47,976 bases of DNA from an uncultured Puniceicoccaceae bacterium (GTDB lineage: Bacteria; Verrucomicrobiota; Verrucomicrobiia; Opitutales; Coraliomargaritaceae). The position numbers and the translations under genes are program-made. The DNA is taken from NCBI GenBank assembly GCA_905479975.1, contig CAJQOS010000020.1:1-47976 (forward strand). Reading direction: 5' to 3'. Shown piece by piece: positions 2,424 through 17,852 of the stretch (its first letter is position 1; every line of letters begins with the position of its first letter). Under the pieces are notes generated by a model. It ran no database searches. It had not been told where the DNA came from and saw only the letters and a program-made list of their open reading frames with translations.

Positions 2424-4055
2424 TTAGTGCCAAGACATGAATATCTCGACGGTCTCCTTAGACTCGGGGCGTAGGTTTTCGATGCCTTCATAGGGCTTGC
2501 CCTTGCCGAGTGGTGCATGCGGATACTTGCCGATCGCCATCATGTGACGCTTGATCATATCCTGAAAGCTGGCACCTGACCAAAGGACTGCGCCGATGTG
2601 GGCGTTTTCTTCGCGGGGATCGCGGAAGACGTTGAAGACTGGCGCGGCGGCGCCAGGCACGCCAGCGCCTGGCACGTGCATCTTCATCTCTTGTTTCACC
2701 ACGGAACGGAGGATCTCGTTTTCGTAGATATACACATAGTCGCGGCGACCGTGGTGTTCGCCATTGAGGAGGAGAGCGGTTTGGTCAACGCCGTCGATCA
2801 CGCGGTCGCGTGGGATGTAGTCGGTGGCTTGGGCGATGCGAGCAAAGGTGGTGTAGAGGTCGGAGACATGCATGATGTCACCTGCGTAGGAGTCGGCCTC
2901 GATGACTCCTGGCCAACGTGCAAATGCATCGACGCGCACGCCGCCTTCGAGGTGTTGGGTCTTGCCGCCGCGATAGATCAGCTGGCTCAGGCCAGAGGTG
3001 CCTTCGTAGTGATACATGAGACCGTTGTCGGCCATGAAGACCACGAGTGTATTATCCGCTTCGCCAGTGGCTTCGAGACGATCCATGAGTTCGCCTATCA
3101 TGCCATCAAGCACTTGTAGTTTCTCAGCCATGAAGCCGCCGTTGAGTGATTCTGGGTTTTCGTCCAAGACGAAGTTCAATGGGTAGAGCGGCCAGTATTG
3201 TAGATAGAAAGGCTCGTCTTTGGCGGCGAGCTGGTCGACTTGCTGCAGAATTTGGCGTTGGTAGCGCTCGTTCATTTCTACGTAGTGCGCGTGCGTCCAT
3301 TCTTCGCCTGGTTCGAGGTCGATCTCGCGAGCCAGACCGCCGACTTCTGCTTCGACGCCAGTAACTAGACCGTAAGGGCGGAAGCGTTTATCGAGTTCAA
3401 ATTCCCCGCTTCGCATGGAGCGATTGTAGCCGAACTGGTTGTTCGCCATGGCGGACTCCTTGGTCATCACCGTCAGCTGCACTTGCTGGTGCAGAGGGAA
3501 TGCTGCGTAATCGAAGCCTTGGTTGTGTGGGTAGGACTGTTCGATGTCGCCCTGGTGCCATTTGCCAATGTGCGATGTATTGTAGCCCGCTTGTTTGAGC
3601 ACTTCTGCAATGGTGACTTCTTCGGCAGGTAGGCCTTCGCCGACCAGTGCGACTTTGACTTCTTTCAAGCCTGTGCGCACTGGGTGACGACCTGTGAGGA
3701 AGGCGGCACGTGTCGGTGTGCAGGACGGCTCGGTATACATCCGCATCAAATTGAGGCTTTCTTCGGAGAACTTATTAATGTTGGGCGTTTTGATGCCCAT
3801 CACGTAGTTCATCTTCGGGTTGCCCATTTGGCCGAAGCTGACGTCGTCGATCAGAATGTAGAGGATGTTGGGGCGCTTGCCGTCATTGGCATCGCGGATT
3901 TCCGCCAGCTTGGCATCCACTTGTGTGTCTTCCGCAGCCCACTGCTCGGCGTATTGCGCTTTGACGAAATTGTATTCGCCGTCGTGGATGATATCGTCGG
4001 CCTGTGTGCTCAATGCGGCACAGGTGATTGATAGTAGGGTCAGTGTTTTCTTCAT
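2424..4055 (-). CDS. Secreted sulfatase, family S1
   Basis: Complete 543-residue sulfatase with signal peptide MKKTLTLLSITCAALSTQA, hence periplasmic or secreted. The active-site signature CTPTR is at residues 112-116; Cys112 is the formylglycine precursor. LIDDVSFGQMG carries the calcium-binding Asp pair, GKWHQGD the conserved Lys/His, and MADNG the second metal-binding Asp/Asn. Length fits family S1. It is a close paralogue of the gene at 1-1581 and both sit in one minus-strand block. It follows the phosphatase lipoprotein gene after 29 bp, suggesting one transcript, and ends at a hairpin terminator. A sulfatase-maturating enzyme is required but none is in this window. Substrate specificity is unknown. 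Confidence 0.95.
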   Translation of the reverse strand: MKKTLTLLSITCAALSTQADDIIHDGEYNFVKAQYAEQWAAEDTQVDAKLAEIRDANDGKRPNILYILIDDVSFGQMGNPKMNYVMGIKTPNINKFSEESLNLMRMYTEPSCTPTRAAFLTGRHPVRTGLKEVKVALVGEGLPAEEVTIAEVLKQAGYNTSHIGKWHQGDIEQSYPHNQGFDYAAFPLHQQVQLTVMTKESAMANNQFGYNRSMRSGEFELDKRFRPYGLVTGVEAEVGGLAREIDLEPGEEWTHAHYVEMNERYQRQILQQVDQLAAKDEPFYLQYWPLYPLNFVLDENPESLNGGFMAEKLQVLDGMIGELMDRLEATGEADNTLVVFMADNGLMYHYEGTSGLSQLIYRGGKTQHLEGGVRVDAFARWPGVIEADSYAGDIMHVSDLYTTFARIAQATDYIPRDRVIDGVDQTALLLNGEHHGRRDYVYIYENEILRSVVKQEMKMHVPGAGVPGAAAPVFNVFRDPREENAHIGAVLWSGASFQDMIKRHMMAIGKYPHAPLGKGKPYEGIENLRPESKETVEIFMSWH

Positions 4056-4996: not shown

Positions 4997-5341
4997 GTGA
5001 CTGAGTGAGTGTTCTGTGGCTAGCTTTAGTGTTGGAAGTCTGATCAAAAGTCGGCGTCACGCAACTGTGTCTGATGGTTTTACTTGAAGTTGCGGCTTTT
5101 GGCATCTCGGGCAGTTTGCTGCATCCTTATAAAAGGATGTTCGGAGAGCTGCCGTCGAAGACCTTGGCTCGGTTGAATGCTTGAGGCTCGGAGGTCAGAA
5201 GCCAGAGAACAGTCAGCAGACGCCCGTAATCGCTTCGCGGGCTACGCTACATTATTCCTGCGCATCCTTTGTTGCGGATTGGCGGCCGGTCATGGCGTAG
5301 CTTTAGCGAAGACTGAAGCCATTTCGATGATGGCTCCAGTT
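4997..5341. other. Intergenic region with two hairpins, no gene seen
   Basis: Between the phosphatase start and the PIN toxin stop. It contains a perfect 7-bp hairpin at 5122-5139 (CATCCTT, loop ATAA) and a 10-of-11-bp hairpin at 5312-5340 (ACTGAAGCCAT / ATGGCTCCAGT). The second lies just past the end of the toxin gene and may act as its terminator or mRNA-end structure, although no clean T run follows on the minus strand. The stretch around 5220-5310 resembles decayed REP-type sequence. No credible open reading frame was found. Confidence 0.6.
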
Positions 5342-5737
5342 TTAGGCTCTTAACAAGAACGCGTCAGCTTGCGCCTTCCTTGAATGCTTAACCAGTGCTT
5401 TGTCGAACGTGTAGAAGGGTGGGTTATTTGCGTTGGCAGTGGTGAGGTGCAGTGCATCGGCGAGATCCATGCCCTTGTGGAAGGCCTCTAGGGTGACGGC
5501 TGCGACATCGTAGTTTTCCAGCTCGACGTTTTCTAAGTTGATCAGGTCGGAAAGTAAGGGATGCAGCTGGTCGCGTGAGAGATCGAAGATCCCTTGGAGC
5601 ACCCATGCGGTTTCCAGTAAGACTGTGTGGCTGATCCAAATCTTATTCCTGCGAAATAGCTTCAGAACTGCAGCGTATTGCTTCGGATCATCCGCAGTGA
5701 GGAAACGGACGATGATGTTGGTATCGACGGCGATCAC
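5342..5737 (-). CDS. PIN-domain toxin (VapC-like)
   Basis: A 131-residue PIN-fold ribonuclease. The acidic residues are visible: Asp5 in AVDTNIIVRF, the Glu in LLETAWVL, Asp in DLADALHL and Asp in YTFDKAL. These coordinate Mg2+ or Mn2+ for RNA cleavage in the family. It begins with GTG at 5737-5735, inside the stop region of the antitoxin gene, giving a 4-bp overlap typical of translationally coupled toxin-antitoxin pairs. The toxin is second, as usual for VapBC. Its RNA target is unknown. Confidence 0.92.
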   Translation of the reverse strand: MIAVDTNIIVRFLTADDPKQYAAVLKLFRRNKIWISHTVLLETAWVLQGIFDLSRDQLHPLLSDLINLENVELENYDVAAVTLEAFHKGMDLADALHLTTANANNPPFYTFDKALVKHSRKAQADAFLLRA

Positions 5738-5991
5738 TTGTGATGCTTCTTGATTTCTTTGGTGAGTGCATCTTCCATCTCCTGCAAGCTGATGGGCTTC
5801 GTATTTGGTCGATGTAATCGACCGGCAAGGGCATCGATCGATACGGTTTTAGCTTTCGGCTGTGGCCGACTGAGCACGAGCTGCCCGGCATCCTCGCGGA
5901 CTTCCAGATGTGTGCCGTTCTCCCAACCGAGCTTTTGCCGATACGCCTTGGGGATGACGACTTGGCCTTTGCTGGATACCTTCGTTTTCAT
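5734..5991 (-). CDS. AbrB/SpoVT-fold antitoxin (VapB-like)
   Basis: An 85-residue protein with an N-terminal SpoVT-AbrB swapped-hairpin DNA-binding domain: MKTKVSSKGQVVIPKAYR followed by LGWENGTHLEVRE and LVLSRP. The C-terminal half (ALAGRLHRPNTKPISLQEMEDALTKE) is the kind of segment that wraps around a PIN toxin. It should neutralise the overlapping PIN protein and repress its own promoter as a complex. ATG at 5991 is the only good start. A short region upstream leads into the palindromic element at 6055-6177. Confidence 0.9.
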   Translation of the reverse strand: MKTKVSSKGQVVIPKAYRQKLGWENGTHLEVREDAGQLVLSRPQPKAKTVSIDALAGRLHRPNTKPISLQEMEDALTKEIKKHHK

Positions 5992-6054
5992 TTTGAAAAA
6001 GTAAGACGAAGGTAAGATTTTGTCAAGCAGCAGAACCGCAGCCGATCACACGCG

Positions 6055-6784: not shown

Positions 6785-7930
6785 TTAGCCCGCAGTGGTG
6801 AGTGCTTCGTGGTATGCGCGAGCATCCAGTAGAGGCACATCGATCATCCGACTGATTGCAGAAGGTGGAGCGTTGGTTTTACGCACATATTCACCAAGTG
6901 CCTTGTAAAAGTGTGTATCAAACTGCTCCTGAGCGACTCGCATAAATGAGTTCGCGGAAGGTGTCTCTCCATCGAAAAGGTGCTCACTCAATGTTGGGAA
7001 CTTTTTGTTGAACTGATTAATCGCAGGAAATAATACCTTGTTATCCAGTTCTGTAAATGGCTGCTCATGCACTTCCGCATACTGTTTTAGCTCCTGATAG
7101 ACCGAGTTGGGCGAGATGGTGTATTCGGAGCCAGTCTCCATGAGCACTTTGGTGCGACCGCGGTCACTGCGAGCTTTGGCGTATTCCTTATAAACTGTCT
7201 TGGCGGCAGCTTCTGGAAATAGCAAGGCACCAGCAAATCGATCCGCAAAATCTTCTGCTAAATCGAGCTGATCTTGCTCAAGAAGATTGACGCTTAATAC
7301 GTGCGCTAATTCGTGTGCCATCCAGAACTTGAAATCATGGATCTCGCTATCGAGGTTTAGGTAGATCCACGTGGTCTTGGATTCGCTCAAATAGATATGC
7401 AAGGCGTTCTCGTGTTTATCCTTCTTTCCCCAAAGGGTTGGGATTAGCACGGCCTGCTGGTCTCTGAACTTGTTAATGAGATCTTTAAATCCGATCGGCT
7501 CATGGTCGCTAAGGTTCATTTCGCGGCGCAAAGTGGTGACCAGCTTTTGGATATACTCGTAGCCAAGGTTCGGATCTTTTAAATATCCGGGAGCCAAGAA
7601 TGGATCGAAATCGAGATAACTAGTGAGCGGTTCGAGGCAGCGCCCCATCGCTTTCGCACGATTAATATGCTTGGGCGTCGTTTTGCAGGATGCACGTCTT
7701 CTGAATGCGATCAGGGGCTCGGCTTTTGATTCGATCGTCAAATCCTTGTAACCAAGACCAAGCAGTTTACCTAGTTTCAGTAACTCAGGTGGTCGCGGGT
7801 GAGATTTTCCAGTGAGCCATTTAGAAACGGCAGCCTTGGTGACTTCCAATTGCGCTGCAATGGCAGTCTGTGTTAGGCCCTGCGCTTCAGCTGTGGAACT
7901 TACGAGGGGGATATTCAGCTGTTTGCTCAT
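6785..7930 (-). CDS. XRE-family regulator with ImmA/IrrE metallopeptidase domain
   Basis: Start set at ATG 7930; a TTG at 7960 would add ten residues and is less likely. The 381-residue protein has an N-terminal helix-turn-helix (about 15-65; LTQTAIAAQLEVTKAAVSKWL) and a zinc-peptidase domain with HELAH at 206-210 and a downstream Glu in DLAEDFADRFAGALLFP, the ImmA/IrrE layout. Such proteins bind an operator and may cleave a partner regulator under stress. Here it is followed after 11 bp by a PIN-like gene, so it is likely the antitoxin or regulator of a toxin pair. Direct repeats just upstream (7957-8002) are candidate operators. Confidence 0.88.
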   Translation of the reverse strand: MSKQLNIPLVSSTAEAQGLTQTAIAAQLEVTKAAVSKWLTGKSHPRPPELLKLGKLLGLGYKDLTIESKAEPLIAFRRRASCKTTPKHINRAKAMGRCLEPLTSYLDFDPFLAPGYLKDPNLGYEYIQKLVTTLRREMNLSDHEPIGFKDLINKFRDQQAVLIPTLWGKKDKHENALHIYLSESKTTWIYLNLDSEIHDFKFWMAHELAHVLSVNLLEQDQLDLAEDFADRFAGALLFPEAAAKTVYKEYAKARSDRGRTKVLMETGSEYTISPNSVYQELKQYAEVHEQPFTELDNKVLFPAINQFNKKFPTLSEHLFDGETPSANSFMRVAQEQFDTHFYKALGEYVRKTNAPPSAISRMIDVPLLDARAYHEALTTAG

Positions 7931-8124: not shown

Positions 8125-9420
8125 CTACTCTTCCAGCAACTCCTTCGGCATTTCTCTTTCGTGGAGACGCTCGATCTTGGCGCCGATGCCAGTGAGCTTT
8201 TGCTCGAAGCGTTCATAGCCGCGGTCGAGGTGGTAAATACGTTGAATCCAAGTGTCGCCGGTAGCTGCGAAGGCGGCGAGGATGAGCGCAGCAGATGCGC
8301 GTAGGTCCGAAGCCATGACGGGTGCACCAGAGAGCTTACTCGCGCCTTTGATAATCGCGCTCGGGCCTTCCATTGCGATGTTTGCGCCCATGCGTTGTAG
8401 CTCGGGCACGTGCATGAAGCGGTTCGGGTAGATGCGCTCGGTGATGATCGAGATGCCGTCTGTTTGGGTCATCAACGCGCCGAGTTGTGCTTGTAAATCT
8501 GTGGGGTATCCGGGGTGCGGCAGGGTGATGACATCGACTGGCTTCAGTGAGCCCTCGTAAGGGAGCACGCGGATGGTATCGTCGCCGAGCTCCATGGGCA
8601 GGCCAGCTTCTTCGAGTTTGTCGAGGAATGCACTGAGGAGCTTCGGTGCGATGCCTTTGACAGTGACGTCGCCACGTGTGATGGCGGCGGCGATGACGAA
8701 GGTGCCGGCTTCGATGCGGTCGGCGATCACGGAGTGCTCGCAGCCGTGGAGCTTGTCCACGCCAGTAATTGTCAACTCGGGGCTGCCGATACCGTCGATC
8801 TGGGCGCCCATTTTGACCAGTAGGTTGCACAGGTCGACGACTTCAGGCTCACAGGCCGCGCATTCGAGACGTGTGCTGCCTGGGGCGAGCACTGCTGCCA
8901 TCACAATGTTGGCAGTGCCAGTCACGGTGCTGCCGCTGCGGCCACCGAGAAAGATGGGGCCGCCTTTGATCTCGGATGCGTCGACGTGGACGTAGCCGTT
9001 GGCGATATCGACCTGACAGTTGAGCTTTTGCAGGCCCTTGATGTGAAGGTCGATCGGACGGGGGCCGATCACGCAGCCCCCGGGGATCGATACTTCAGCT
9101 TTGCGCATACGCGCGACGAGCGGGCCGAGCAGGCAAACCGAGGCACGCATCTTGCGCACCAATTCATAGGGCGCAATGTGGGTGATCTCCTTGGCGGTGA
9201 TCTCCCAGGTGCCGGGTTCGGGTTGCACTGTCTCGGCGCCGACGTGCTGCAGGATCTCGATCATGAAGCGCATATCGCTCAGATCGGGGACGTTCTTCAG
9301 AACGACCGTCTCATCGGTAAGCAGGGTGGCGGCGAGGATCGGTAGGGCGGCGTTTTTGGCACCGCCGACTTTGATCTCACCATTTAAAGGTCCGTTCCCG
9401 CTAACTTTGAAGACATCCAT
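8125..9420 (-). CDS. murA: UDP-N-acetylglucosamine 1-carboxyvinyltransferase
   Basis: A 431-residue enzyme that transfers enolpyruvate from phosphoenolpyruvate to UDP-GlcNAc, the first committed step of peptidoglycan synthesis in the cytoplasm. The N-terminus has KVGGAKNAALPILAA, where Lys and Asn bind substrate. The catalytic loop IPGGCVIGPRPIDLH places the nucleophile and fosfomycin target at Cys116. TDLQAQLGALMTQ and GANIAMEG follow as in the family, and length matches bacterial MurA. It begins at ATG 9420, 21 bp after the RGG-protein gene, so the two are probably co-transcribed. A heptamer array lies 18 bp past its stop. Confidence 0.98.
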   Translation of the reverse strand: MDVFKVSGNGPLNGEIKVGGAKNAALPILAATLLTDETVVLKNVPDLSDMRFMIEILQHVGAETVQPEPGTWEITAKEITHIAPYELVRKMRASVCLLGPLVARMRKAEVSIPGGCVIGPRPIDLHIKGLQKLNCQVDIANGYVHVDASEIKGGPIFLGGRSGSTVTGTANIVMAAVLAPGSTRLECAACEPEVVDLCNLLVKMGAQIDGIGSPELTITGVDKLHGCEHSVIADRIEAGTFVIAAAITRGDVTVKGIAPKLLSAFLDKLEEAGLPMELGDDTIRVLPYEGSLKPVDVITLPHPGYPTDLQAQLGALMTQTDGISIITERIYPNRFMHVPELQRMGANIAMEGPSAIIKGASKLSGAPVMASDLRASAALILAAFAATGDTWIQRIYHLDRGYERFEQKLTGIGAKIERLHEREMPKELLEE

Positions 9421-14388: not shown

Positions 14389-14457
14389 TCTTAATCATAC
14401 TCTTACTCTTAATCCTACTCTAATTTTTGAGGGTTAAGAGTAAGAGTATGATTAAGA
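14389..14457. repeat. 24-bp perfect inverted repeat
   Basis: Arms at 14389-14412 and 14434-14457 are exactly complementary, and pairing extends inward four more positions with one G-T wobble. The loop is about 13-21 nt. The arms themselves consist of short iterated blocks (CTTAATC, ATACTCT, TACTCTT). It lies 44 bp upstream of the SNF2 start and about 150 bp before the dUTPase start, in the divergent intergenic region, so it could form a cruciform or an RNA hairpin in either leader. Confidence 0.85.
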
Positions 14458-15120: not shown

Positions 15121-15723
15121 ATGAACGAATCTCCCTTTATGATCTTACTCTACGTCGGCATGGCTGCCTACGTGGGGAATATATATTGGGGCGACTATAA
15201 GTCGCAAAGGGGCGGTGAGCCGAATCCATCGGCGATGCCGGGCGCGACTGCGGCCTCGCTGAAGCTCTTTGTCATCGGTGTGATCGGTGCGTTGCTAATC
15301 CTCGCTGCGGAGACCAGTGGCGAGATTGCGCTCGGTATCTCCTCCGAGCAGAGCGAGATGGTGTGGTATTTCGTGTTCGCTAGTCTCGGCGCTGGCATTG
15401 TGGAAGAGGTGATCTTTCGCGGTTATCTAGTGGTGGATAAAAAGGGGCGCGCTGCGCTGATTGGCAGCTGTATTGGTTTTTCGCTGATCTTTGCAGTGAT
15501 CCATCCGCACCTTTGGAGCAATGAAGAGAGCTTTCACCTGACGCTGACTGCGAAGGGCTTTTTCAGCACTTCGATTTTGTTGGTAAACTCACTCTGGTTC
15601 TACGCACTGCGCTTTGGACCATGGAATAAGAACCGCTCGCTGTTTCCCTGCATGCTGGCCCATGCGGCGAGTAACTTAGGGGTATTTGCGGTGAAGCTTG
15701 CGCAGGGATTTGTGACGTTTTAG
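15121..15723 (+). CDS. CPBP-family intramembrane metalloprotease
   Basis: A 200-residue multi-spanning membrane protein. Hydrophobic segments lie at about 45-63, 82-95, 111-128, 150-164 and 180-196. The Abi/CPBP motifs are present: EEVIFR at 95-100, His128/His130 in FAVIHPH, and His181 with Asn185 in LAHAASN. Family members cleave within the membrane or act in CAAX processing and bacteriocin immunity. The start at ATG 15121 directly abuts a hairpin and T run with no Shine-Dalgarno, so a start at Met7 or Met14 is possible. Its last 25 codons plus 8 bp are repeated at 17454-17537. Confidence 0.88.
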   Translation: MNESPFMILLYVGMAAYVGNIYWGDYKSQRGGEPNPSAMPGATAASLKLFVIGVIGALLILAAETSGEIALGISSEQSEMVWYFVFASLGAGIVEEVIFRGYLVVDKKGRAALIGSCIGFSLIFAVIHPHLWSNEESFHLTLTAKGFFSTSILLVNSLWFYALRFGPWNKNRSLFPCMLAHAASNLGVFAVKLAQGFVTF

Positions 15724-15731
15724 GCGTCGAG
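15648..15731 (+). repeat. 84-bp direct repeat, left copy (3' end of CPBP gene)
   Basis: Matches 17454-17537 at 78 of 84 positions. All six differences are third codon positions of the CPBP frame and five are synonymous (one Leu/Phe). The repeat covers the catalytic LAHAASN motif to the stop, plus GCGTCGAG beyond it. The two copies bound the HipA/DUF3037 cassette. Confidence 0.92.
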
Positions 15732-15793
15732 CGCGAGGTGAAATAAAACGTTGTTCTTTTTAGTTATTCTGGATCGAATGTAATTCTCGATAC

Positions 15794-16588
15794 ATGATTG
15801 CACTCCCATTGATACGCCAAGCCACTGCCCTTCAGTATGGAGAGGTTCTGCGAGAAGGACATTCCCATCCATGTGTAATGGATTGTCTGGATGATTATGG
15901 TGAGGATCGCCGTTTGGCGGTGAAGTTTCGTTCGACTGTCTATGGGGGCAACCGCGCATTAATTGCTGAGTTATTGGCGAGCCTGTTGGCAAGCGCACTG
16001 TCTATTCCAGTGGCTGCTCCATTTATTGTTGATTGCGATGCAAGCTTAGGAGAGGCAGTAGCTGATGCTCATATAGCGAAGCAAATAAGAGAAAGTGCGG
16101 GATTTAATTTTGGCTCGGAGTTTTTGCAACCCGCTCGCACTGTGCCGCCTCGATGGCCACTCTCAGGAGTATATCTAGATGAAGCTTTGAAAGTGTTCTT
16201 TTTGGATGCGATTATTCAAAATGCAGATCGATCAGAGTTAAAGCCGAACCTTTTAGTCTACAGAGGAGGGCTCATCGTGATTGATCATGAGCAAGCTCTT
16301 CCTTTTATGCATGGTGCCGTCGGGCGTGAGCCTTGGGTGGCGAATGAACTTACTTATCTGCGAAATCACATTTTTTACTCAGGACTACGTGGCAAGACGC
16401 TTGATTTTGGTGAGATCGCTACTCTTTTTGTCGCACTTGACGAACTCCGAATTCAAGAGCATCTTAATGTCATTCCAAAAGCTTGGCGTCTGACTAATAA
16501 AGATTGCCAGATGTACATTAATTATATTTCCACCGCACAGTCTAAGTTGAGTTTAATTATTAATAACTTAAACGATTTTTTGAGATGA
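15794..16588 (+). CDS. HipA-like kinase-fold protein (HipA_2 type)
   Basis: A 264-residue single-domain protein related to the kinase core of HipA. Visible motifs are LAVKFRS with the candidate ATP-binding Lys44, NADR at 143-146, PNLL at 151-154 and the metal-binding VIDHEQAL at 162-169. These are the catalytic and DFG-equivalent positions in HipA-like kinases. It lacks the HipA N-terminal subdomain and has no HipB partner beside it. Instead its stop overlaps the start of a DUF3037 gene by 4 bp. Codon and base usage are more A+T-rich than neighbours, suggesting transfer. Function is unknown; a toxin or defence role is possible by analogy only. Confidence 0.88.
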   Translation: MIALPLIRQATALQYGEVLREGHSHPCVMDCLDDYGEDRRLAVKFRSTVYGGNRALIAELLASLLASALSIPVAAPFIVDCDASLGEAVADAHIAKQIRESAGFNFGSEFLQPARTVPPRWPLSGVYLDEALKVFFLDAIIQNADRSELKPNLLVYRGGLIVIDHEQALPFMHGAVGREPWVANELTYLRNHIFYSGLRGKTLDFGEIATLFVALDELRIQEHLNVIPKAWRLTNKDCQMYINYISTAQSKLSLIINNLNDFLR

Positions 16589-17451
16589 ATACGCACTACA
16601 AATATGCACTATTACGCTACCGACATGATGTTGTGTCTGGTGAGGCGTTAAACGTGGGTGTGGTTGTTTATTCGTTGGAGCAGCGCTATTTGCGTGCAAA
16701 ATTCACGATTAAGGGCACTCGTTTGAAAAGTGCGTTCAAAGACTTGGATATCACATATTACAAGGAAATCGCTAACTTCTTAAATACCTCTTTCGATAGT
16801 CGTGCTGGCTCGCTGCAGGATATTGTTAATGATCGCGGACAGGAGCATACCTCTTCTTTAAGTCAGTTGCTACAGTCTATTTTGCCGCAGGATGACAGCT
16901 CACTTCAATGGTCGGATGTTCGAGGTGGTATGCATTCGGATTTAAATGCAGTTTTCGAGCGTTTATATTCTTTGTATATTGGGCAATACGAAGAAAAGGC
17001 TAAAGATGAGCACCGCAAGGATAGTGACATTTGGCAACAAGCGAGTTCGAACTGGGAGGGCCGACGAGTTGTAGATCGTCTGATGCCTAAGACTGTTAAG
17101 AGCCCGATTACTGGCCTAGATGTCACATTTGAGCACACGTTTAAGAATGGCACATGGCATTGTTATCAACCGATTTCCTTTGATTTAAAAAAGGCAGATT
17201 CAATTACAGGTAAGGCTTACAAGCATGCTGGAGGGTTAAATAGTTTACATGATGCAGCCAAAGAGTTGAAAATTTACTATTTGATCGGAAATTCCAGTGA
17301 TCCCGATATGTCTAAGGTTCAGAACGGAGCAGAGAAATGTCTGCTCGATGTTAATCTGCCGACAAAACCACAGATTATTCGAGAGGATGAGTTTGTTGAT
17401 TGGTCCCGATCTGTGGCAAAGCTAGTTGAGACTCATCCATTTTCAGAATGA
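16585..17451 (+). CDS. DUF3037-family protein
   Basis: A 288-residue protein whose N-terminus (YKYALLRYRHDVVSGEALNVGVVVYSLEQ) is the hallmark of DUF3037. Its function is unknown. It overlaps the HipA-like gene by 4 bp (ATGA) and is therefore translationally coupled. The HipA_2/DUF3037 pairing recurs in bacteria, so the two probably act together, for example as kinase and substrate or toxin and antidote; this is inference. The C-terminal part (residues about 150-288) has no signature I recognise. Base composition is A+T-rich like its partner. Two bases after the stop begins the right copy of the 84-bp repeat. Confidence 0.85.
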   Translation: MNTHYKYALLRYRHDVVSGEALNVGVVVYSLEQRYLRAKFTIKGTRLKSAFKDLDITYYKEIANFLNTSFDSRAGSLQDIVNDRGQEHTSSLSQLLQSILPQDDSSLQWSDVRGGMHSDLNAVFERLYSLYIGQYEEKAKDEHRKDSDIWQQASSNWEGRRVVDRLMPKTVKSPITGLDVTFEHTFKNGTWHCYQPISFDLKKADSITGKAYKHAGGLNSLHDAAKELKIYYLIGNSSDPDMSKVQNGAEKCLLDVNLPTKPQIIREDEFVDWSRSVAKLVETHPFSE

Positions 17452-17453
17452 GT

Positions 17454-17537
17454 CTGCATGCTGGCGCACGCGGCGAGTAACTTCGGGGTATTTGCGGTGA
17501 AGCTGGCACAGGGCTTTGTGACGTTTTAGGCGTCGAG
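17454..17537 (+). repeat. 84-bp direct repeat, right copy (displaced CPBP 3' end)
   Basis: A headless copy of the last 25 codons, stop codon and 8 following bases of the CPBP gene. It still encodes LAHAASN-like catalytic residues but has no upstream part. Its TAG and final bases overlap the end of the convergent VapB-VapC scar gene, exactly where an undisturbed CPBP gene would have ended. Confidence 0.92.
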
Positions 17538-17852
17538 TGGGTTGACCCACTTGAGTTTAGGGAAGCGCCCGAAATCGCGGTCGGCGCTCTTACGTTTGTA
17601 GGCAGCTCGATTTTCTGCGGCGAGGAATGCATCAGCCTCCAGTTCGTCAGCCAGATCGCTCAAGCGCCGAGGGTCGATTCCGGGCGCCAGCCCCATGGAG
17701 CGTGGCGGCAGTAGTTCTCTTTTTGTGTCGGTCGGTTTGAGTGAGTCACGTAGGGCATCATTCAGCACGCGCTTAAAGCTTTTGCGCCGTTTATGGCAGG
17801 CATTGCGGATGTATTGTTCGACATCTGCATCTAATGTGACGGTCGTTCGCAT
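17526..17852 (-). pseudogene. VapB-like antitoxin fused to a VapC C-terminal remnant
   Basis: A 108-residue frame. Residues 1-78 are a ribbon-helix-helix antitoxin (MRTTVTLDADVEQYIRNAC, then RSFKRVLNDALRDSL-like helix and PRSMGLAPGIDPRRLSDLADELEADAF). Residues about 85-108 (KSADRDFGRFPKLKWVNPL) match the characteristic last 20 residues of VapC PIN toxins. The catalytic part of the toxin between them is absent. The simplest reading is an in-frame deletion that joined vapB to the last codons of vapC. The DNA-binding half may still work as a repressor or orphan antitoxin. Its 3' end overlaps the right 84-bp repeat. Confidence 0.75.

Follow-up and report, generated by a model that had tools for sequence, protein, structure and literature searches.

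A predicted anti-phage HipAD operon lies between two copies of a protease gene end in an uncultured Puniceicoccaceae bacterium

How does a two-gene operon that carries no integrase come to lie between two copies of the 3' end of a protease gene? The question is raised by a stretch of 47,976 nucleotides (here called the window, or the 48-kb window) from an uncultured Puniceicoccaceae bacterium, in which an A+T-rich cassette of 1722 bp (15732-17453) follows an intact CPBP gene and is enclosed by direct repeats, referred to as the left and the right arm. The features of the locus are listed below.

15121-15723, plus strand: CPBP (Rce1-like) protease gene, intact, with its 3' end duplicated (Pfam PF02517, E 2.1e-10)
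15648-15731, plus strand: left arm, the last 24 codons of CPBP, its stop and 8 bp beyond; derived-looking allele
15732-15793, plus strand: leader of the cassette, 62 bp, with no sigma-70-type site listed
15794-16588, plus strand: HipA-like kinase, PDC-M66A (DS-6A/HipAD kinase), predicted toxin (PF20613, E 1.3e-14; PDLC04766, E 7e-52)
16585-17451, plus strand: DUF3037 protein, PDC-M66B (DS-6B), predicted antitoxin (PF11236, E 5.6e-18; PDLC04767, E 1.7e-66)
17454-17537, plus strand: right arm, a headless CPBP 3' end with a native-like allele, continuous with the convergent vapB' reading frame
17526-17852, minus strand: VapB-VapC deletion fusion, in which the N-terminal part of VapB runs into the final ~20 residues of VapC, the PIN toxin

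The cassette is a HipAD (PDC-M66) toxin-antitoxin operon, for which an anti-phage role is predicted from its homologues. Like the PDC-M66/DS-6/HipAD systems, it consists of two genes in the order HipA-like kinase followed by DUF3037, here overlapping by 4 nt, and both PADLOC models are covered over almost their full length (positions 10-268 of 270 for PDC-M66A and 2-278 of 281 for PDC-M66B). Putative catalytic residues are also retained in the kinase of the window. Residues K44, D145, N152 and D164 are invariant across the four aligned HipA proteins, and we take them to be the ATP lysine (K44), the catalytic Asp and Asn (D145/N152) and the metal Asp (D164). Identity to the three aligned homologues is just 21-33%. 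According to the accessible text of two earlier studies, the HipA/DUF3037 pair suffices alone, with deletion of HipA abolishing defence against Bas51 and deletion of DUF3037 being toxic (PMC12548924), and defence by DS-6, renamed HipAD, depends on a kinase residue (PMC13092281). The same text makes no mention of a setting between gene-end copies, such as that of the pair in the window. The DUF3037 protein would hold the HipA-like kinase toxin in check and release it presumably on phage infection; activity of the cassette against phages in this host is predicted.

The original prediction proposed a comparison of the base composition of the cassette with its flanks, and the cassette indeed looks foreign. 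Its G+C content is 43.3% as compared to 53.2% in the window, lower than in all of the 926 sliding 1722-bp windows of the 48-kb window, and the GC3 of its two genes (0.38 and 0.41) lies below that of nine neighbouring genes or gene parts (0.57-0.74). The open reading frame list and Pfam agree that the cassette holds these two genes only and no integrase or recombinase gene, as the same prediction had stated. Promoter-like sites are as numerous as in shuffled sequences and terminator-like sites are fewer.

HipAD was found in 4 of 387 genomes of the phylum (own genome included) and in 2 of 385 genomes of the class of genome G455 (G455 included). Viral collections yielded five distant HipAD loci (L108-L112) and no closer donor, a search of phages gave none, and the plasmid searches returned two and four records, the first two being common to both. 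A donor combining CPBP with the cassette was not found among relatives, viral contigs, phages or plasmids. In three of the contigs from viral collections (L108, L110 and L111) the HipAD pair follows hsdR-hsdM-hsdS-like genes, as judged by eye, and in L108, L109 and L111 it ends at the contig end.

The arms are 84 nt long, identical at 78 positions (93%) and spaced by 1806. Each consists of the last 24 codons of CPBP, the stop codon and a terminal 8 bp, GCGTCGAG, which lies beyond the CPBP stop; the right copy of these 8 bp encodes the end of the convergent vapB' reading frame, whose stop overlaps the CPBP stop. The right arm begins 2 nt past the DUF3037 stop. All six mismatches (15660, 15663, 15678, 15699, 15702 and 15708) fall on the third codon position of CPBP (P 0.0014 under random placement); five are silent and one changes Leu to Phe (TTA/TTC), while the final 23 bp of the arms are identical. 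The repeats and their third-position mismatches had been described in the original prediction from the letters alone, and both are confirmed, as is the description of the right copy as headless and continuous with a convergent vapBC scar. This scar corresponds to the reading frame that fuses vapB to the last 20 residues of vapC; in relatives vapB (90-92 aa) and vapC (143 aa; PIN, PF01850) are separate genes.

When direct repeats of at least 40 bits and 80% identity at 0.3-8 kb distance were listed in the 48-kb window, there were two, namely the arms and a low-complexity 43-bp pair around 23758/24911, which was set aside as unrelated. Above 60 bits and at a spacing of more than 1 kb, the arms are the sole direct repeat in 461.6 kb made up of the CPBP neighbourhoods of relatives and the window. 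No inverted repeat was detected in the window arm when judged against mononucleotide shuffles. Upstream of the locus, at 14389-14457, a 28-bp inverted repeat with 96% complementarity and a 13-nt loop lies between an SNF2-like gene (named by eye) and a dUTPase gene.

Comparison with relatives reveals the target site without the cassette. Among 91 genomes, many of them incomplete, CPBP is matched in 70 (own genome included) and the HipA gene in one, which is the genome of the window itself; the cassette was detected in none of the 90 relatives searched. In the congener G001 the CPBP stop is separated by 36 bp from the stop of a convergent vapC, behind which vapB follows. The original prediction had suggested looking for CPBP genes convergent with vapBC and lacking the cassette, and G001 is the one congener with this arrangement; the window's own vapC has been deleted. 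Each of the ten congeners with a CPBP match has a single one, and a second CPBP end was not detected in any of 34 relative loci at a cut-off of 47 of 79 positions. In the congener G003 (L040, about 5009-6004 of the reverse complement) the CPBP-vapC gap holds a 986-bp insert with a 273-aa reading frame, bounded by the 6-bp repeat GCTTGT, and in G005 and G006 it holds transporter-like genes (named by eye). The gap thus takes inserts repeatedly.

Which of the arms belongs to the host can be judged from the relatives, sampled as one genome per species. The arms agree with each other at 73 of 79 positions, whereas the CPBP ends of relatives reach 65 of 79 at most. Of 27 such ends compared (L058-L064, seven of the 34 relatives, were dropped), 21 are nearer to the right arm, two are nearer to the left and four are ties. 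Therefore, the right arm is probably the host's own, and the left arm has probably been imported or replaced. In the FastTree phylogeny the left arm has a branch of 0.098 and the right arm one of 0.002. A headless copy decaying in place would be expected to change more than an intact gene, but the tree puts the change on the branch of the intact gene, which disfavours local decay. A model of in-place decay gives P 0.003 with one change on the right arm. The majority base of ten congeners is present in the right arm at four of the six sites and in the left arm at the other two (15663 and 15702); if both of the latter are counted as changes of the right arm, the case against in-place decay weakens to P of about 0.025 (own arithmetic on the same model). 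The arms now differ by 7%, and the third-position pattern together with the polarity suggests an exchange of alleles. This agrees with the original prediction that the copies diverged as working coding ends in different genomes. Arms that resemble alleles of different genomes also suggest that they serve as homology in later transfer.

An alignment of four DUF3037 proteins, used to scan the genome collection, picked out 24 other HipAD loci. L069-L071 were left out as duplicates of L072, L087 and L092, and the borders of the pair in L077 and L095 were placed manually. L070 comes from G315, a genome of the same class as that of the window, and both its proteins show 100% identity to their counterparts in the Luteolibacter pohnpeiensis locus L087, so that the window belongs to the same class as Luteolibacter. 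Three of the 24 are closely bracketed by direct repeats.

L083 (Ignavibacteriae): arms of 286 bp, 92% identical, corresponding to the 3' terminus of a lipase-like gene for 378 aa (Lipase_3, E 1e-4), with the right arm headless
L084 (Defluviicoccus): arms of 281 bp, 98.6% identical, from a BON-domain-like gene end (named by eye) and the gap to the ribosome site of the next gene
L091 (Akkermansiaceae): arms of 46 bp, with no gene assigned to them

When the pair is slid within its locus, 0.52 loci are bracketed on average, as compared to the three observed (P 0.012). Of the 24 HipAD loci (253 kb), 12 contain direct repeats of at least 40 bits and 80% identity at a distance of 1-5 kb, as do 6 of 50 regions drawn at random from the same genomes (507 kb; Fisher P 0.0009); the 50 remained after 9 of 59 regions under 3 kb had been dropped. 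Repeats between genes in control region L199 were disregarded as unrelated. A gene end with a headless copy, as judged by eye, is present in four HipAD loci (L079, L083, L084 and L092) and in none of the 50 controls (P 0.009), and in two of these four (L079 and L092) hsdS-like ends flank a neighbouring gene and not HipAD. The expectation that other HipAD pairs would be flanked by gene-end fragments thus stands for L083 and L084, but the genes concerned are not CPBP. CPBP 3'-end fragments beside other HipAD pairs were accordingly rejected: two of the three closely bracketed loci carry the ends of other genes, and L091 is unassigned.

In L083, 14 of the 22 arm differences are at third positions (P 0.003), yet the residue is altered in more than half of the 18 changed codons. 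A search for relatives of its lipase-like gene gave distant ones only, which do not reveal a cassette-free site. For L084 such a site is visible, the BON-like end standing directly before a RidA-like gene in four of five family relatives (no match was obtained in the fifth). Over 216 bp, the left arm of L084 shows 100% identity to a third BON-like end copy on another contig of the same genome; this third copy is attached to the apparent true gene, and nar-like genes come after it (by eye). The left arm would therefore be headless too, and the site resembles an array of inserts. Since the arms of L084 are nearly identical, local duplication fits them better than the import of an allele. The three copies of the BON-like gene end in this one Defluviicoccus genome are seen around the nar-like genes and HipAD (L224, whole contig, and L084, 1-2344). 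The genome of L091 contains two HipAD loci (L091, 1762-2427, and L102), the bracketed one having a shortened HipA frame.

Taking these observations together, we find it likely that the HipAD operon reached the CPBP end of the window by ordinary homologous recombination that placed the arms and needed no dedicated recombinase, the left arm being of donor type and the right arm of recipient type. A fragment or circle from a relative, carrying a CPBP end and the cassette, would integrate by a single RecA crossover within the CPBP end, or would enter through one homologous and one illegitimate end. As another route, the cassette may already have stood between duplicated arms and been moved among strains by ordinary homologous recombination. 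Either route would account for these two types of arm. Both the RecA step and the donor are what we infer from this layout; speaking against the reading as a whole are the unbracketed state of most HipAD loci, the failure to find a donor, the 7% difference between the arms and the presence of such repeats in 6 of 50 random regions.

The identical last 23 bp and the confinement of the differences to 15660-15708 are compatible with a recombination end within the arm. It is conceivable from this that the arm was duplicated on insertion and that a divergent allele from another strain later took the place of the CPBP gene alone, as far as a position within the left arm; in that case the cassette would never have moved with the gene end. 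This requires two events, and we regard it as unlikely, although the least so among the alternatives. Insertion in place with an 84-bp duplication, both copies then diverging locally, is also unlikely. The arms of L084, 98.6% identical and with the left one perfectly matched over 216 bp to the third copy, are as expected for a recent local duplication of that kind, but the mismatches in the window are third-position in six of six cases, the change falls on the branch of the intact gene, and the model leaves a P of about 0.003 to 0.025.

A site-specific element targeting gene ends, with an att site in the CPBP end, an element-borne end that completes the host gene, and a recombinase acting in trans or since lost, appears rather improbable to us. 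Such elements leave a foreign-looking left and a native-like right end, as in the window, where the CPBP frame is intact, and ten tyrosine-integrase (PF00589) matches exist elsewhere in the genome. However, none of the ten is on the contig of the window (tyrosine integrases being the only class searched genome-wide) and the cassette holds no recombinase. The target sequences differ from case to case, the arm lengths range from 46 to 286 bp, and no common core was found in the arms of the four bracketed cassettes in both orientations (smallest P 0.077; a core of few bases would escape). The lack of a detectable shared core and the differing target genes argue against a gene-end-targeting integrase, and the dedicated element envisaged in the original prediction is not supported. 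That the right copy is the decayed relic of a second complete CPBP paralogue in tandem seems very improbable, considering the single CPBP match in each of the ten congeners that have one, the absence of a second end from the 34 relative loci at the above cut-off and the cut only 2 nt from the DUF3037 stop.

Placement of the arms by homologous recombination has precedents, and the original suggestion of an undescribed way of moving was too strong. Insertion with long target duplication is known for restriction-modification genes and was first seen in Helicobacter, according to the available text of PMC1643837, PMC3031569 and PMC3154945, which cite Nobusato et al. 2000, Gene 259:99. As described there, defence genes are flanked by long direct duplications of variable length, comparable to the 84 bp on both sides in the window; the single-copy site expected in relatives is seen in G001 only, with no second end in the 34 loci. 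In contrast to those cases, the window has a kinase toxin-antitoxin operon, and its arms, as in two other phyla, are gene 3' ends, resembling alleles of different genomes. In E. coli, the accessible part of PMC3240628 describes cut DNA that re-circularises and integrates by a RecA-dependent single crossover; in the 14 clones sequenced, this left gene-end duplications of 109-950 bp. The partial gene-end duplication beside inserted DNA is alike, but laboratory plasmids were used there, whereas the event in the window is natural and inferred. Homology-facilitated illegitimate recombination has been suggested, in the available text of PMC5361080, for effector-immunity arrays with displaced 3' ends. 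As in those arrays and in Rhs 3'-end displacement, a new module is anchored by gene homology and the old 3' end is pushed downstream; the anchor there is part of the effector locus, whereas in the window it is the end of an unrelated protease gene. These comparisons suggest that the window fits the known insertion with long target duplication and adds to it the HipAD cargo, the recurrence across phyla at unrelated genes and the allelic mismatch of the arms.

The similar arrangements at unrelated genes in other phyla raise the possibility that such modules may spread by ordinary recombination at gene ends, without an integrase of their own. A wider and more doubtful reading, which we put forward tentatively, is that small defence operons such as HipAD travel recombinase-free, with a host gene's 3' end serving as their portable homology arm. 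In a relative, RecA would then insert the cassette downstream of that gene, leaving the gene unbroken, and each arrival would add a headless end, so that arrays build up; the CPBP end in the window, the lipase-like end in L083, the BON-like ends in L084/L224 and the hsdS-like ends around other genes in L079 and L092 would be examples. Many defence systems move between genomes without a visible mobility gene, and gene-end duplications are a readable and testable scar of one route. For annotation, a headless copy of the end of the upstream gene can indicate where an imported cassette ends on the right.

No close bracketing is seen in 21 of the 24 other HipAD loci, at least three of which (L075, L087 and L088) have less than 1 kb of sequence on one side, and several HipAD loci adjoin type I restriction genes. 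Gene-end insertion is therefore one route among several. Some loci show further repeats in the neighbourhood of the pair. The hsdS-like 3'-end duplications (named by eye, as are the genes they enclose) surround a DUF262-like gene near HipAD in L079 (1750-1810 / 3635-3695) and a nuclease-like gene near HipAD in L092 (475-545 / 1792-1862). In L072 a 218-bp direct repeat of 94% identity (7025-7242 / 9054-9271) encloses a deaminase-like/AlbA-like reading frame (by eye) downstream of HipAD. A 36-bp direct repeat of 89% identity in L090 (2186-2221 / 6876-6911), located at the start of two reading frames, encloses HipAD together with two upstream genes; its spacing is 4.7 kb and it was left out of the count of close bracketing.
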